Below, piece after piece: positions 12,622 to 59,222 of a stretch of 64,000 nucleotides of DNA (within the stretch, counting starts at the first letter, position 1; each line of letters opens with the position of its first letter). Under the pieces are notes generated by a model. The model did not search any database, was not told where the DNA came from, and saw nothing but the letters and a program-made list of their open reading frames with translations. A program made the position numbers and the translations under genes. The stretch is from Ruegeria sp. HKCCA6707 (lineage in GTDB: Bacteria; Pseudomonadota; Alphaproteobacteria; Rhodobacterales; Rhodobacteraceae). The stretch is from NCBI RefSeq assembly GCF_013033515.1, contig NZ_WQEG01000001.1:558001-622000 (forward strand). The letters run 5' to 3'.

Positions 12622-13992
12622 ATGAAACACGACGTTTTTGGACAACTGAACACCCTGACCCAGCCGGCGGCCGTCGAAGCCTGGGATGGTGTTCTGCTTG
12701 GGTTCATGGCACATGCCGCCGTCACCCCTCAGCACCTGGGCAAGGTGCTGGAGCTTGAGCCAGATTTCGCGCTCGGCCATGCGGTAAAGGGCCTTTTCAT
12801 GATCCTGCTGGGCCGGCGCGAGATGTATCCGGTCGCAGCCGAAGCGCTGACGTCCGCCAAGGCCGCAATTGAGAGGCAGCCCGTTTCGGCACGCGAACAG
12901 CTTTATGTTGACGCTTTGACACTCTATCTGGCCGATTTACCATCGCAGGCAGTGCAGAAATTTGAAGAGATTCTTCGCGCGCATCCCGAAGACACGCTTG
13001 CCATGAAACTCAGCCATGCGACCCGTTTCGTGTTGGGCGACGCAGAGGGCATGCGCCGCTCGATTGAACGGGTGATGCCAGCCTATGAGCCCGGCCATGC
13101 CGGGCGTGGCTACCTTTTGGGCTGTCACTCCTTCGCACTTGAAGAAACCGGAGCCTATGACAAGGCCGAGATCGCGGGCCGTCAGGCTTTGTGGATGGTC
13201 TCGGACGATGCCTGGGGCCTTCACGCGGTGGCGCATGTGCATGAAATGACGGGCAACGCGCAGCTTGGTCTCGACTGGCTGGCCGGGCGCGAAGAGGCTT
13301 GGGCGCATTGCAACAACTTCCGCTATCACGTCTGGTGGCATAAGGCGCTGATGCATCTGGATCTGTGTCAGGTCGATCAGGTGATGGCGCTCTATGATGA
13401 ACATATCCGCAAAGACAAGACTGACGACTACCGGGACATTTCGAACGCCACCTCGCTGCTGTCGCGGCTGGAACTTGAGGGCGTGAATGTCGGTAACCGG
13501 TGGGAAGAGCTGGCAGACCTGAGTGCAGCGCGCACCGAGGACGGCTGCCTGATCTTTGCCGATTTGCATTATCTGTTGGCCCTGACCGGTGACAACCGTG
13601 GCGATGCCACTGGAAAGATGCTGAACCGAATCCAGAAGGACGCGCAGCGCAATCACGGTGATACGGCAATCCGCATGTCAGACCCGGGCGTTGCCGCAGC
13701 AAAAGGGCTCGAAGCCTTTGGTGACGGGCTGTACGGCGAAGCGTTCAACTTCCTATCGACCGCGCGCGCGGGTATGCAGCTGGCAGGCGGCAGTCACGCG
13801 CAACGGGACGTTTTCGAACGGATTACAATCGATTCCGGCTTGCGTGCGGGGCGCCTGGATGATGTAGAGCGGATTTTGGATGATCGCCGCGCCAAACGCT
13901 GTGGCGGAGAGGATAACTATGCGCTGGCCCGTCGCGCATTGATCGAAGCAGCCCGCGACAATCGCGACGCACAAAGCGTTCCGGCTGAGTAA
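12622..13992 (+). CDS. Tetratricopeptide-repeat protein, TTC38-like
   Basis: A 456-residue, soluble, all-helical protein with degenerate TPR units, resembling the bacterial relatives of eukaryotic TTC38. The N terminus (MKHDVFGQLNTLTQPAAVEAWDGVL) is followed by GKVLELEPDFALGHAVKG. A central helix has WGLHAVAHVHEMTGN and NNFRYHVWWHKALMHLDL, rich in His and Trp and well conserved in this group as I recall it. No signal peptide or catalytic motif is evident, and the function is unknown. I prefer the ATG at 12622, with GGA 7 bp upstream, over an in-frame GTG at 12559 whose extra residues look unlike protein sequence. The 178-bp gap upstream probably holds its promoter. opgC follows after 28 bp. 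Confidence 0.75.
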   Translation: MKHDVFGQLNTLTQPAAVEAWDGVLLGFMAHAAVTPQHLGKVLELEPDFALGHAVKGLFMILLGRREMYPVAAEALTSAKAAIERQPVSAREQLYVDALTLYLADLPSQAVQKFEEILRAHPEDTLAMKLSHATRFVLGDAEGMRRSIERVMPAYEPGHAGRGYLLGCHSFALEETGAYDKAEIAGRQALWMVSDDAWGLHAVAHVHEMTGNAQLGLDWLAGREEAWAHCNNFRYHVWWHKALMHLDLCQVDQVMALYDEHIRKDKTDDYRDISNATSLLSRLELEGVNVGNRWEELADLSAARTEDGCLIFADLHYLLALTGDNRGDATGKMLNRIQKDAQRNHGDTAIRMSDPGVAAAKGLEAFGDGLYGEAFNFLSTARAGMQLAGGSHAQRDVFERITIDSGLRAGRLDDVERILDDRRAKRCGGEDNYALARRALIEAARDNRDAQSVPAE

Positions 13993-54813: not shown

Positions 54814-57087
54814 ATGTCGGACACGTCAAACCTGCGGCAGGCCGCACTTGATTATCACGCTCATCCAAAACCCGGTAAGCTTGAAATTCGCGCCACGAAA
54901 CCAATGGCCAATGGGCGCGACCTTGCGCGCGCTTATTCTCCGGGTGTGGCCGAAGCCAGCCTTGAGATTAAAGCCGACGCCTCGAACGCCGAGCTTTACA
55001 CCGCGCGCGGTAACCTTGTGGCCGTGGTTTCGAACGGGACCGCGGTTCTGGGCTTGGGCAATATCGGTGCGCTGGCCTCAAAACCAGTGATGGAAGGCAA
55101 GGCCGTCCTGTTCAAGAAATTTGCAGGCATTGACTGTTTTGACATCGAAGTCGATCAGCCCGACCCGGAAAAACTGGCCGATATCGTCTGCGCGCTGGAG
55201 CCGACCTTTGGTGCGGTCAACCTTGAAGACATCAAGGCACCCGATTGTTTTATAGTGGAAAAACTCTGTCGCGAACGGATGAACATTCCGGTGTTCCACG
55301 ACGATCAACACGGCACGGCCATTGTCGTGGGGGCTGCGGCCAAGAACGCGCTGCATGTGGCCGGCAAGGCGTTTGAGGACATCAAAGTTGTCTCGACCGG
55401 TGGTGGCGCGGCGGGGATCGCGTGCTTGAACATGCTGGTCAAGCTGGGGGTAAAGCGCGAGAATATCTGGCTCTGTGACATCCACGGACTGGTTTATGAA
55501 GGCCGTGCCGAAGACATGAACCCGCATAAGGACCAGTTCGCGCAGACATCTGATTTGCGCACGCTGGATGACGTGATCGGGGATGCAGACCTGTTTCTGG
55601 GACTGAGCGGGCCAAATGTCCTGAAGCCCGAGATGGTGCAGAAAATGGCCGAGCGACCGATCATTTTCGCGCTGGCCAACCCCACGCCCGAGATCCTGCC
55701 GGAAGACGCCCGCGCGGTTGCGCCTGACGCGATCATCGCCACCGGGCGCAGCGATTTTCCCAATCAGGTCAACAACGTATTGTGCTTTCCTTTTATCTTT
55801 CGCGGGGCGCTGGATGTAGGCGCGACCGAGATCAATGACGCGATGGAGATCGCTTGTGTTGACGGCATCGCCGAAATGGCGCGCGCAACAACCAGCGCCG
55901 AAGCTGCCGCAGCCTATAAAGGTGAGCAGCTGACCTTCGGGCCCGAATACCTGATCCCCAAGCCCTTTGATCCGCGCCTTGTTGGCGTTGTGTCATCCTC
56001 GGTGGCCAAAGCCGCGATGGAAAGCGGAGTGGCCAAGCGCCCGATTGACGACCTTGAGGCTTACAAAGAAAAGCTGAACCAGACGGTATTCAAGTCCGCC
56101 CTACTGATGCGCCCTGTGTTTGAGGCTGCCGCCAATGCCTCGCGCCGGATTGTCTTTGCCGAGGGCGAGGACGAACGCGTTCTGCGCGCCGCTCAGGCGA
56201 TTTTGGAAGAAACGACCGAAACGCCCATTCTGATCGGCCGCCCTGATGTAATCGACGCGCGGTGTGAACGGTTGGGCCTGACGGTCAGGCCCGGTCAGGA
56301 CTTTCAGATCGTTAACCCGGAAAATGACCCGCGTTATTATGATTACTGGAACTCCTACCACCAGATCATGCAGCGCCGGGGTGTCACTCCGGATTTGGCC
56401 AAGGCCATCATGCGTACGAATACAACCGCCATAGGCGCCATCATGGTGCATCGCGGCGAGGCTGACAGCCTGATCTGCGGCACCTTTGGCGAATACCGCT
56501 GGCATCTGGACTATGTTGAACAGGTTCTGGACGAAGATGATCTGCGGCCCCACGGCGCGCTGTCGTTGATGATCCTCGAAGATGGCCCTCTCTTCATCGC
56601 GGATACGCACGTGCGGCAGTTGCCCTCGCCCGAGGAACTGGCCGAGACCACAATCGGCGCAGCCCGCCACGTGCGCCGGTTCGGGCTGGAACCCAAGATC
56701 GCCTTTTGCTCGCAATCTCAATTCGGCAATCAGGCCGAAGGCTCGGGCAAGCGGTTGCGGGCCGCGCTTAAGATCCTGGATTCGGAACCAAGGGACTTCA
56801 CGTACGAGGGCGAAATGAACCTGGATGTGGCCCTTGACCCGGAACTGCGTGCACGGATTTTCCCAAATTCGCGTCTTGAAGGGCCCGCCAATGTGTTGAT
56901 CTTCGCCCATGCGGACGCCGCCAGCGGTGTGCGCAATATCCTGAAGATGAAGGCCAACGGGCTTGAGGTTGGACCGATCCTGATGGGCATGGGGAACAAA
57001 GCCCATATCGTAACACCTTCGATCACCGCACGCGGATTGTTGAACATGGCGGCCATCGCGGGAACGCCAGTGGACCACTACGGGTAG
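54814..57087 (+). CDS. maeB: NADP-dependent malic enzyme with phosphotransacetylase-like domain
   Basis: MaeB oxidatively decarboxylates malate to pyruvate. The 757 residues match the usual length of the hybrid form. The malic-enzyme half has [18 protein letters not shown] (quoted in part), [32 protein letters not shown], and the nucleotide-binding [15 protein letters not shown]. The C-terminal ~320 residues resemble phosphate acetyltransferase ([16 protein letters not shown], and [17 protein letters not shown]) and usually act as a regulatory, acetyl-CoA-responsive domain. A GGAGAGGGAG leader precedes the ATG. No hairpin terminator is seen after the stop. Confidence 0.96.
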
Positions 57088-57115
57088 GTATTTATCCAAG
57101 TCTGATTCTGATAGC

Positions 57116-57243
57116 GCAAACCGTTTGCAGATCGAAATTTGCAGTTTTGCAATACTCGGAAGATCATGTGAAAATCGGCTTGCATATTCTTGGGTTTGCA
57201 AAAATTTGCAGGTGATTTTAGCGGCATCTGCAAATTTTTTGCG
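57116..57243. promoter_or_regulatory. TTTGCAA repeat cluster before prpE (ScfR/PccR-type operator)
   Basis: In 128 bp there are at least six TTTGC half-sites: GCAAACCGTTTGC (57116-57128), TTTGCAG (57138-57144), TTTGCAA (57146-57152), TTTGCAAA (57195-57202), TTTGCAGG (57205-57212) and TGCAAATTTTTTGCG (57229-57243). The short-chain fatty acyl-CoA regulators (PccR, RamB) bind TTTGCAAA pairs as I recall. The downstream propionyl-CoA synthetase makes this the natural reading. Confidence 0.75.
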
Positions 57244-57332
57244 ATAAACTGCCGCGCCGTTATTCGAGCCGCTTGTTCGATGCAATGCTGATCCGTAACA
57301 CGGTATCACAGGTTTATGGAGAGGAGGACGCC

Positions 57333-59222
57333 GTGGCCTATCAGGAGGTATATGACAGCTGGAAAAGCGACCCCGAGGGGTTCTGGATGGATGCCGCCAA
57401 GGGGATCGATTGGGTCCGCCCTCCGAGCAAGGCCTTGTTTGCGGAGAACGCCCCCCTCTACGAATGGTTCAGCGACGCGCGGGTGAACACCTGTTGGAAC
57501 GCGGTGGACCGTCATGTCGAAAATGGCCGGGGTGAACAAACCGCCATCATCTACGACAGCCCAATCACCCAGACCAAGCGCGAAATCTCCTATGTCGAGC
57601 TGCGCAACCGCGTCGCCAACCTTGCTGGCGCGCTCCGGGCCAAAGGGGTTGAGAAAGGGGACCGGGTCATCATCTACATGCCGATGATCCCCGAAGCACT
57701 TGAGGCGATGCTGGCCTGTGCTCGCCTGGGTGCTGTGCACTCGGTGGTGTTCGGCGGCTTTGCCAGCAACGAATTGGCAGTGCGCATCGATGATGCCAAA
57801 CCCAAGGCAATCATCGCAGCCTCTTGCGGGCTGGAACCCGGTCGTGTGGTGCATTACAAACCTCTGCTGGACGGCGCGATTGAGCTGGCCGACCACAAGC
57901 CCGATTTCTGCGTCATCTTTCAACGCGAACAGGAAGTGGCCGAACTGATCGAGGGGCGCGATGTCAATTGGCACGGGTTTCAATATGGTGTTGAACCCGC
58001 CGAATGCGTGCCGGTCGACGGCAATGACCCGGCCTATATCCTCTATACTTCTGGAACGACGGGCGCGCCGAAAGGCGTTGTGCGCCCAACCGCAGGCCAT
58101 CTGGTGGCGCTGAACTGGACGATGAAAAACCTCTATGATGTCGATCCCGGCGATGTGTTCTGGGCGGCCTCAGATGTGGGCTGGGTCGTCGGACATTCCT
58201 ATATCTGCTACGCACCGCTAATCCACGGCAACACCACCATCGTGTTCGAAGGCAAACCTGTCGGCACACCGGATGCGGGCACGTTCTGGCGGGTGATCTC
58301 AGAACATAAGGTCAAAAGCTTCTTCACCGCACCCACCGCAATCCGCGCCGTCAAACGCGAAGACCCCAAGGGTGAGCTGATGGCCAATTACGACCTGTCG
58401 AACCTGCGTGCCCTGTTTCTTGCCGGAGAACGCGCAGATCCCGACACGATCACCTGGGCGCAGGATGCGCTGAACGTGCCGGTGATCGACCATTGGTGGC
58501 AAACCGAAACCGGCTGGGCCATTGCAGGCAACCCGCTGGGGATCGAGGAATTGCCGATCAAACTGGGCTCGCCCGCCAAACCGATGCCGGGCTATGATGT
58601 GCAAATCCTCGACGAAGGCGGACACCCGATGAAAGCCGGAGAGTTGGGCGCAATTGCTGTCAAGCTGCCCCTGCCCCCCGGTACATTGCCGACGCTTTGG
58701 AATGCCGAGGCGCGGTTCAAGACCTCATACCTGGATCATTTCCCCGGCTATTACGAAACCGGTGACGCGGGCATGATCGACGAGGACGGATACCTTTATA
58801 TCATGGCGCGTACTGATGACGTGATCAACGTGGCAGGCCATCGCCTGTCCACGGGCGGCATGGAGGAAGTTCTGGCCGCCCACCCGGACGTGGCCGAATG
58901 CGCCGTGATCGGGGTGTCGGACCAGTTGAAGGGCCAGATGCCGGTTGGCTTTCTGTGCCTGAATACTGGCTCGGATCGCGGTCACGATGACGTGGTGCAA
59001 GAGGTGGTCACCATGGTGCGGGACAAGATCGGGCCGGTGGCGGCCTTTAAAAAGGCCGTGGTTGTGGCGCGATTGCCCAAGACACGTTCAGGCAAGATCC
59101 TGCGTGGAACGATGGTGTCGATTGCGGATGGGCAGGACTATAAGATGCCCGCGACCATCGACGATCCGGCCATCCTGGACGAGATCACGGACGCATTGAA
59201 AACCATCGGCTACGCCAAATAA
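57333..59222 (+). CDS. prpE: Propionate-CoA ligase
   Basis: PrpE activates propionate to propionyl-CoA via an acyl-AMP. The 629-residue protein has the AMP-binding core ILYTSGTTGAPKGVVRPT, WAASDVGWVVGHSYICYAPL, WWQTETGWAIAGNP and YYETGDAGMIDEDGYLYIMAR (in parts). The acetylatable Lys falls in PKTRSGKILRG near the C terminus. I chose GTG at 57333 because GAGGAGGA lies ideally upstream and the family's AYQEVYDSW start follows. A TTG further upstream (57273) would place translated sequence across the leader. The promoter region carries the TTTGC cluster. Confidence 0.94.
   Translation: MAYQEVYDSWKSDPEGFWMDAAKGIDWVRPPSKALFAENAPLYEWFSDARVNTCWNAVDRHVENGRGEQTAIIYDSPITQTKREISYVELRNRVANLAGALRAKGVEKGDRVIIYMPMIPEALEAMLACARLGAVHSVVFGGFASNELAVRIDDAKPKAIIAASCGLEPGRVVHYKPLLDGAIELADHKPDFCVIFQREQEVAELIEGRDVNWHGFQYGVEPAECVPVDGNDPAYILYTSGTTGAPKGVVRPTAGHLVALNWTMKNLYDVDPGDVFWAASDVGWVVGHSYICYAPLIHGNTTIVFEGKPVGTPDAGTFWRVISEHKVKSFFTAPTAIRAVKREDPKGELMANYDLSNLRALFLAGERADPDTITWAQDALNVPVIDHWWQTETGWAIAGNPLGIEELPIKLGSPAKPMPGYDVQILDEGGHPMKAGELGAIAVKLPLPPGTLPTLWNAEARFKTSYLDHFPGYYETGDAGMIDEDGYLYIMARTDDVINVAGHRLSTGGMEEVLAAHPDVAECAVIGVSDQLKGQMPVGFLCLNTGSDRGHDDVVQEVVTMVRDKIGPVAAFKKAVVVARLPKTRSGKILRGTMVSIADGQDYKMPATIDDPAILDEITDALKTIGYAK

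Follow-up and report, generated by a model that had tools for sequence, protein, structure and literature searches.

A strictly spaced multi-box element upstream of prpE in Ruegeria sp. HKCCA6707 and its relatives is a predicted operator of PccR

Introduction

PrpE is described as the acrylate- and propionate-activating enzyme of the Ruegeria DMSP cleavage route (PMC7157515, PMC5651017), and both acrylate and acryloyl-CoA are described as toxic (PMC7157515, PMC5651017, PMC9769926). In Ruegeria sp. HKCCA6707, a dense cluster of TTTGC half-sites lies directly upstream of prpE, within a 64,000-nucleotide stretch of contig NZ_WQEG01000001.1 (positions 558,001 to 622,000; hereafter the window, whose numbering is used for all prpE coordinates). 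The question raised by this cluster is which regulator reads it, and whether that regulator would activate or repress prpE.

Results

A half-site cluster in the maeB-prpE intergenic region

The regulatory intergenic region extends from the stop codon of maeB, encoding NADP malic enzyme (57085-57087, plus strand), to the GTG start of prpE (57333-59222, plus strand), which encodes a propionate--CoA ligase. The NCBIfam matches of the prpE product are led by two propionate--CoA ligase models that both miss their curated cut-offs (730 bits against 955, 697 against 827), and an acetate--CoA ligase model comes next at 630 bits. The product contains AMP-binding and ACAS_N domains and is 92% identical to a Ruegeria denitrificans protein; the name prpE is that of the best match, taken from these top models under their cut-offs. 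The maeB product likewise matches its top NCBIfam model, PRK12861, below the cut-off (1015 versus 1178 bits).

Nine TTTGC or GCAAA 5-mers are present in this intergenic region, all of them within 127 bp (57116-57242) and starting at 57116 (minus strand), 57124, 57138, 57146, 57195, 57198 (minus), 57205, 57230 (minus) and 57238. This count exceeds the six or more half-sites in 128 bp claimed in a preliminary description of this DNA, and no other 128 bp of the window are as dense, the maximum elsewhere being five, near 30.7 kb. The near-palindromes mentioned in that description are also present, as one perfect TTTGCAAA at 57195-57202 and three forms with one mismatch. Successive 5-mers are separated by 3, 9, 3 and 44 bases, then overlap, and are then separated by 2, 20 and 3 bases, so that of the gaps of 1, 2, 3 and 7 bases previously listed those of 2 and 3 recur, while those of 1 and 7 are absent under the TTTGC/GCAAA definition.

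When read as octamers, the cluster forms four doublets, all on the plus strand. The outermost, box A0 (GCGCAAACCGTTTGCAGA, 57114-57131), has a counterpart in some relatives as a TTTGCA upstream of box B. Box A (57138-57153) comprises two head-to-tail octamers, TTTGCAGT and TTTGCAAT, with a spacer of 0, which is the form taken by the boxes of pccB promoters. Box B (57195-57211), TTTGCAAA-AA-TTTGCAG, has its octamers 2 bp apart, and box C (57227-57244), TCTGCAAA-TTT-TTTGCGA, has a spacer of 3 and begins 32 bp from the start of B. Boxes A, B and C are thus doublets of TTTGCAAA-like octamers, as expected of an ScfR/PccR-type operator. Downstream of every box lie a putative -35 element, CTTGTT (57272-57277), and a putative -10 core, TAAC (57296-57299), followed by the ribosome binding site GGAGAGGAGGA (57318-57328), all on the plus strand. 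We infer from conservation alone that CTTGTT and TAAC form the prpE promoter, TAAC(A) being present in most rows of the alignment described below.

Fixed geometry of the boxes among relatives

Among the first 25 prpE loci collected from relatives (L013-L037), 17 contain at least six half-sites in the 400 bp upstream of prpE; the remaining eight (L020, L022, L028, L029, L033, L034, L035 and L036) contain between one and four. PccR is encoded in all eight genomes of these low loci (61-80% identity), and the presence of PccR therefore does not imply that of the operator. The element before prpE has probably been gained or lost repeatedly among these relatives.

Alignment of the window sequence with the 17 half-site-rich relatives (18 upstream regions) revealed conserved blocks corresponding to the second octamer of box A, box B, box C, CTTGC and TAAC. 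A family pattern that takes in box B, TTTGCAAANNTTTGCA-N(12-20)-TGCAAA, was derived solely from prpE and searched for as exact matches in 394 genomes of the family. It is present in 64 of them, as a single copy in each, and its reversed control matched nowhere in any genome; although gaps of 12 to 20 were permitted, the gap is 18 in 18 genomes and 19 in the other 46. Thirty of the 64 loci were inspected, some of their genomes being identical with those of the first collection (for example, G080 corresponds to L032). The pattern lies before prpE in 28 of the 30 and before pccB in the other two. In the 28 prpE loci the match is located 134-160 bp ahead of the prpE start, and maeB is found within the fetched stretch in 24 but missing from it in four, which indicates that the operator belongs with prpE.

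Distances between the boxes are close to invariant in these 28 loci. Box C follows box B by 32 or 33 bp in all 28, whereas A to B (taken from the TTTGCA upstream of B) measures 47-50 bp, and the C octamer to CTTG[CT] 43-46 bp, in 27 each. An A0-like TTTGCA is present 69-72 bp ahead of B in 11 of the 28 (71 bp in the window). The variable spacing between half-sites noted in the preliminary description is thus not looseness, the box-to-box distances being constant across genera; its suggestion that several dimers may bind cooperatively fits these fixed distances.

A PccR-type regulator encoded beside pccBA

The host genome (4.54 Mb, 99% complete) encodes two proteins of the PF09856 (ScfRs) family, both outside the window, in agreement with the earlier remark that no ScfR gene lies within it. 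The first, a 466-residue protein matching PF09856 with 237 bits, is encoded on the same contig roughly 530 kb from prpE (L093), consistent with the action at a distance that had been proposed. It contains HTH_3, IrrE-like and ScfRs domains, as expected of PccR, and its gene lies near one for an MFS transporter and near two others, here called pccB and pccA, with carboxyl transferase and propionyl-CoA carboxylase BT domains in their products. Among NCBIfam models the pccB product scores best with mmdA, at 788 bits against a cut-off of 999; since this match falls short, the gene is named pccB after its surroundings and after the BT domain found in the partner protein.

The closest solved relatives of the regulator are PrpR structures (6cyy, E-value 3e-86). 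In our own numbering of the 6cyy alignment, its Trp144 aligns with Phe155 of Mycobacterium tuberculosis PrpR, reported as the residue that selects the CoA ester and described as Trp in Rhodobacter sphaeroides PccR (PMC6765138). Among 29 orthologues this position holds W in 28 and Y in one, and the four iron-sulfur cluster cysteines are conserved in all 29. The regulator scores 440 bits against the NCBIfam RamB equivalog NF038139, under its curated cut-off of 700. Given the pccBA neighborhood, the Trp at the CoA-selecting position and the RamB score below cut-off, we call this regulator PccR and not RamB.

PccR is encoded in all 63 other genomes positive for the family pattern, with at least 68% identity. 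In a sample of 17 operator-negative genomes, 12 encode PccR with at least 60% identity, two a more distant form and three none at an E-value of 1e-60. The co-occurrence of operator and PccR is consistent with their association, but PccR is widespread among genomes of the family, which makes this a weak test.

The motifs of pccB and prpE find each other

The pccB promoters of the host and its relatives contain doublets such as TTTGCAGATTTGCAAT and TTTGCAAATTTGCCG. A matrix was trained with all 19 exact TTTGC-N3-TTTGC boxes from pccB promoters of other genomes, leaving the host out. Its best match in the window is box A (57138, 23.4 bits); the next scores 18.8 bits and falls within an ORF, and the one after that scores 12.4. 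A match at 13555, within an ORF, was taken as a decoy. Exact TTTGC-N3-TTTGC occurs in 25 places in the 4.54-Mb genome, and the matrix orders these as pccB (26.8 bits), prpE (23.4), the mmsA/lysR intergenic region (23.1), pccB (22.9) and then 19.8 or less. The first three ranks are complete, because a single broken TTTGC base limits the score to 22.96.

A profile of the pccB boxes run on the host genome, with scores covering 150 of 3040 first-look candidates, returned pccB, prpE and pccB as its first three matches, at weak E-values of 0.02, 0.15 and 0.3. In 16 relatives, 30 matches of the profile were inspected and found to comprise 16 at pccB, four at prpE and 10 others, one of them before pccR; the pccB matches prove little, because the pccB boxes of many of these genomes had trained the profile. 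The profile matched prpE in eight of the 11 cluster-bearing relatives (four inspected directly and four confirmed by position), and none of the three that it missed has an exact box A. In the reverse direction, the two non-prpE loci of the prpE-derived family pattern (L256 and L273) lie between pccB and a divergent MFS-type gene. A matrix built from pccB thus leads to prpE and a pattern built from prpE leads to pccB, so that the motifs of both promoters find each other and prpE shares its motif with a target, pccB, of the candidate regulator.

The mmsA element (C1:204840) was considered as a further PccR target and set aside, since in relatives it looks like a probable LysR-type box. It scores 23.1 bits against 23.4 for the prpE box, ranks fifth in the genome profile scan, and adjoins a divergent gene with LysR domains. 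Of the 27 lysR/mmsA intergenic regions from host (L214, C1:204840-204935) and relatives (L215-L240), 13 contain an exact TTGCA-N4-TGCAA and 22 contain it with at most one mismatch. This element is probably the box of the neighboring LysR-type regulator mimicking a PccR box, and it may have a PccR role.

Further patterns were also run on the genome. An R. sphaeroides-type pattern, TTTGCAAA-N4-TTTGCAAA with up to three mismatches, matched 40 places (17 in the control), one of them inside the pccR ORF, and the prpE cluster was not among the matches listed. GCAAA-N(1-6)-TTTGC matched 72 places (45 in the control), with three in the prpE cluster among the matches listed, and a pattern with a 10-bp period gave 36 genome matches, of which, besides prpE, two were inspected (L172 and L173) and lie inside ORFs.

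Direction of regulation and alternative regulators

Since all boxes at prpE lie upstream of the putative promoter, their position suggests activation. The strongest alternative is that PccR binds the prpE region but represses it and is released by propionyl-CoA, in the manner of those ScfR proteins that repress. In Paracoccus denitrificans, RamB is reported to act both as an activator and as a repressor (PMC10370305), and a repressor-type arrangement can be seen at pccR itself: in the pccR promoters of the host (L093:7050-7117) and its relatives, TTTGCAAA lies between CTTG and TA in 16 of 30 genomes. This location, between the putative -35 and -10 of pccR, suggests self-repression of that gene. 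A second octamer, where present in these promoters, often follows 20-22 or 29-30 bp on, which makes another spacing class. At prpE, in contrast, the boxes are clear of the putative -35 and -10, the C-to-CTTG[CT] distance given above being that of the nearest box, and R. sphaeroides PccR is described as an activator (PMC10370305). We consider repression of prpE by PccR improbable.

The other PF09856 protein encoded in the genome (C27; L094:7022-8308) is very unlikely to be the regulator of prpE. This divergent protein has HTH_3 and a ScfRs match above cut-off (43 bits), but no IrrE-like domain match was found in it; no group of three half-sites within 60 bp occurs in the surrounding 16 kb, and the prpE motif is shared instead with the pccB and pccR promoters. 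Its gene adjoins genes for a biotin carboxylase, a biotin carrier (accBC-like) and a sensor kinase, and weaker matches to it, at about 23-35% identity, are present in many relatives. The preliminary description had matched the half-sites to a PccR/RamB-type consensus; the PccR part of that assignment is supported by the boxes shared with pccB and the reciprocal motif finding, and the RamB part falls with the weak, divergent match of this other PF09856 protein.

PhaR (AniA), a polyhydroxyalkanoate regulator binding TGC-rich repeats, is a still more remote candidate. One PF05233 gene is present in the genome, and the PhaR sites of P. denitrificans and R. sphaeroides are described as TGC-rich (PMC10888616). 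The core of the published Sinorhizobium PhaR palindrome, YGCRNYGCR (PMC12542648), is nevertheless absent from the prpE region and occurs twice in the region before the host phaP, and the GC steps inside the prpE doublets are 8, 10 and 11 bp apart rather than 5; PhaR was rejected as the prpE regulator on the missing motif. The region before phaP (L099:8150-8420, C1) has two PhaR-type palindromes, as in other alphaproteobacteria.

Lastly, a chance origin of the cluster from AT-rich intergenic DNA can be practically discounted: G+C content is indeed low (39% in 57100-57250 versus 59% across the window), but none of 5,000 dinucleotide-preserving shuffles of 57088-57335 reached nine half-sites (mean 1.9, largest 7), the geometry is constant across many genera and the reversed control was empty.

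Discussion

The region between maeB and prpE very probably serves prpE as operator and promoter, where the PccR encoded beside pccBA would bind and, in response to propionyl-CoA, activate the gene; binding, direction and ligand are here predicted from sequence. ScfR operators and PccR are already known, and what would be new is prpE as a predicted target, together with a strictly spaced multi-box operator. Among the papers listed by searches of open-licence literature, none was found to describe prpE as controlled by PccR.

Several ScfR operators invite comparison with the one proposed here. One is the PccR operator at R. sphaeroides pccB, which reportedly consists of TTTGCAAA-type octamers separated by a four-base spacer, according to what Carter and Alber are said to have described in 2015. 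That operator and the prpE element would have in common the octamer type, the kind of regulator and the link to propionyl-CoA metabolism, and they differ in that prpE is the target here and that three to four doublets are present. The reported spacer of four also differs from the spacers of 0, 2 and 3 between octamers at prpE and of 0 at the host pccB. None of the prpE boxes has a four-base spacer, a feature that we do not treat as defining, spacers differing among ScfR sites. The R. sphaeroides system is also covered in PMC10370305, PMC12632250 and PMC6765138. Within the family itself, the pccB promoters resemble the prpE operator in the form of their boxes and in a distance of 32 bp: a pair of TTTGC is set this far apart in 15 of the 22 genomes compared, and not in the other seven.

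The PrpR (MccR) operator of M. tuberculosis at prpDC is described as a pair of 8-bp palindromes, TTTGCAAA and TTTGCgAA, with a one-base spacer and a 25-bp footprint (PMC3420887), and PrpR itself as a CoA-binding [4Fe4S] tetramer (PMC6765138). The octamer pair is common to both systems and the host PccR matches the PrpR structure 6cyy, whereas the one-base spacer, the single doublet and the control of the methylcitrate cycle set the PrpR operator apart. For class 2 RamB of P. denitrificans, an 80-bp fragment of the glyoxylate operon with 17-bp flanks is described as containing two near-identical boxes separated by an 18-bp spacer (PMC10370305). From these figures we calculate boxes of 14 bp and a period of 32 bp, the same as the distance from B to C at prpE; differences lie in the ScfR class, the ligand (methylmalyl-CoA) and the target, and a third box is not part of that description. 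The recurrence of 32-33 bp at prpE, in many pccB promoters and at Paracoccus RamB suggests that ScfR tetramers share a mode of DNA recognition.

By analogy with PrpR, PccR may be a tetramer that holds paired octamer doublets at a distance of about 32 bp, or three helical turns; at prpE this pair would be B and C, and boxes A and A0 would provide additional PccR contacts. Bridging by a tetramer would leave the inner spacers free to vary (0-3 at prpE, one in PrpR), and this shared mode of recognition, if true, would account for varied inner spacers alongside constant outer distances. On binding propionyl-CoA, PccR would activate transcription from the downstream CTTGC/TAAC promoter, so that the activation of propionate, and possibly acrylate, and the carboxylation of propionyl-CoA would rise together, while PccR would curb its own gene by occupying the space between the pccR -35 and -10. 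If the signal is propionyl-CoA, prpE would be activated by its own product, with the induced carboxylase as a balance. It is conceivable, though on balance doubtful, that prpE carries in full a cooperative PccR enhancer with tetramer-bridged fixed boxes, acting as a switch activated by its product (propionyl-CoA, perhaps also acryloyl-CoA from DMSP-derived acrylate) and braked by PccR self-repression and carboxylase induction. Were such a product-activated switch to exist, roseobacters would respond to propionate and acrylate in an all-or-none manner.

With a candidate regulator and a conserved operator at hand, control of the step that activates acrylate and propionate becomes directly testable. 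If activation of prpE by PccR is the true reading, a single sensor would govern both the making and the using of propionyl-CoA.
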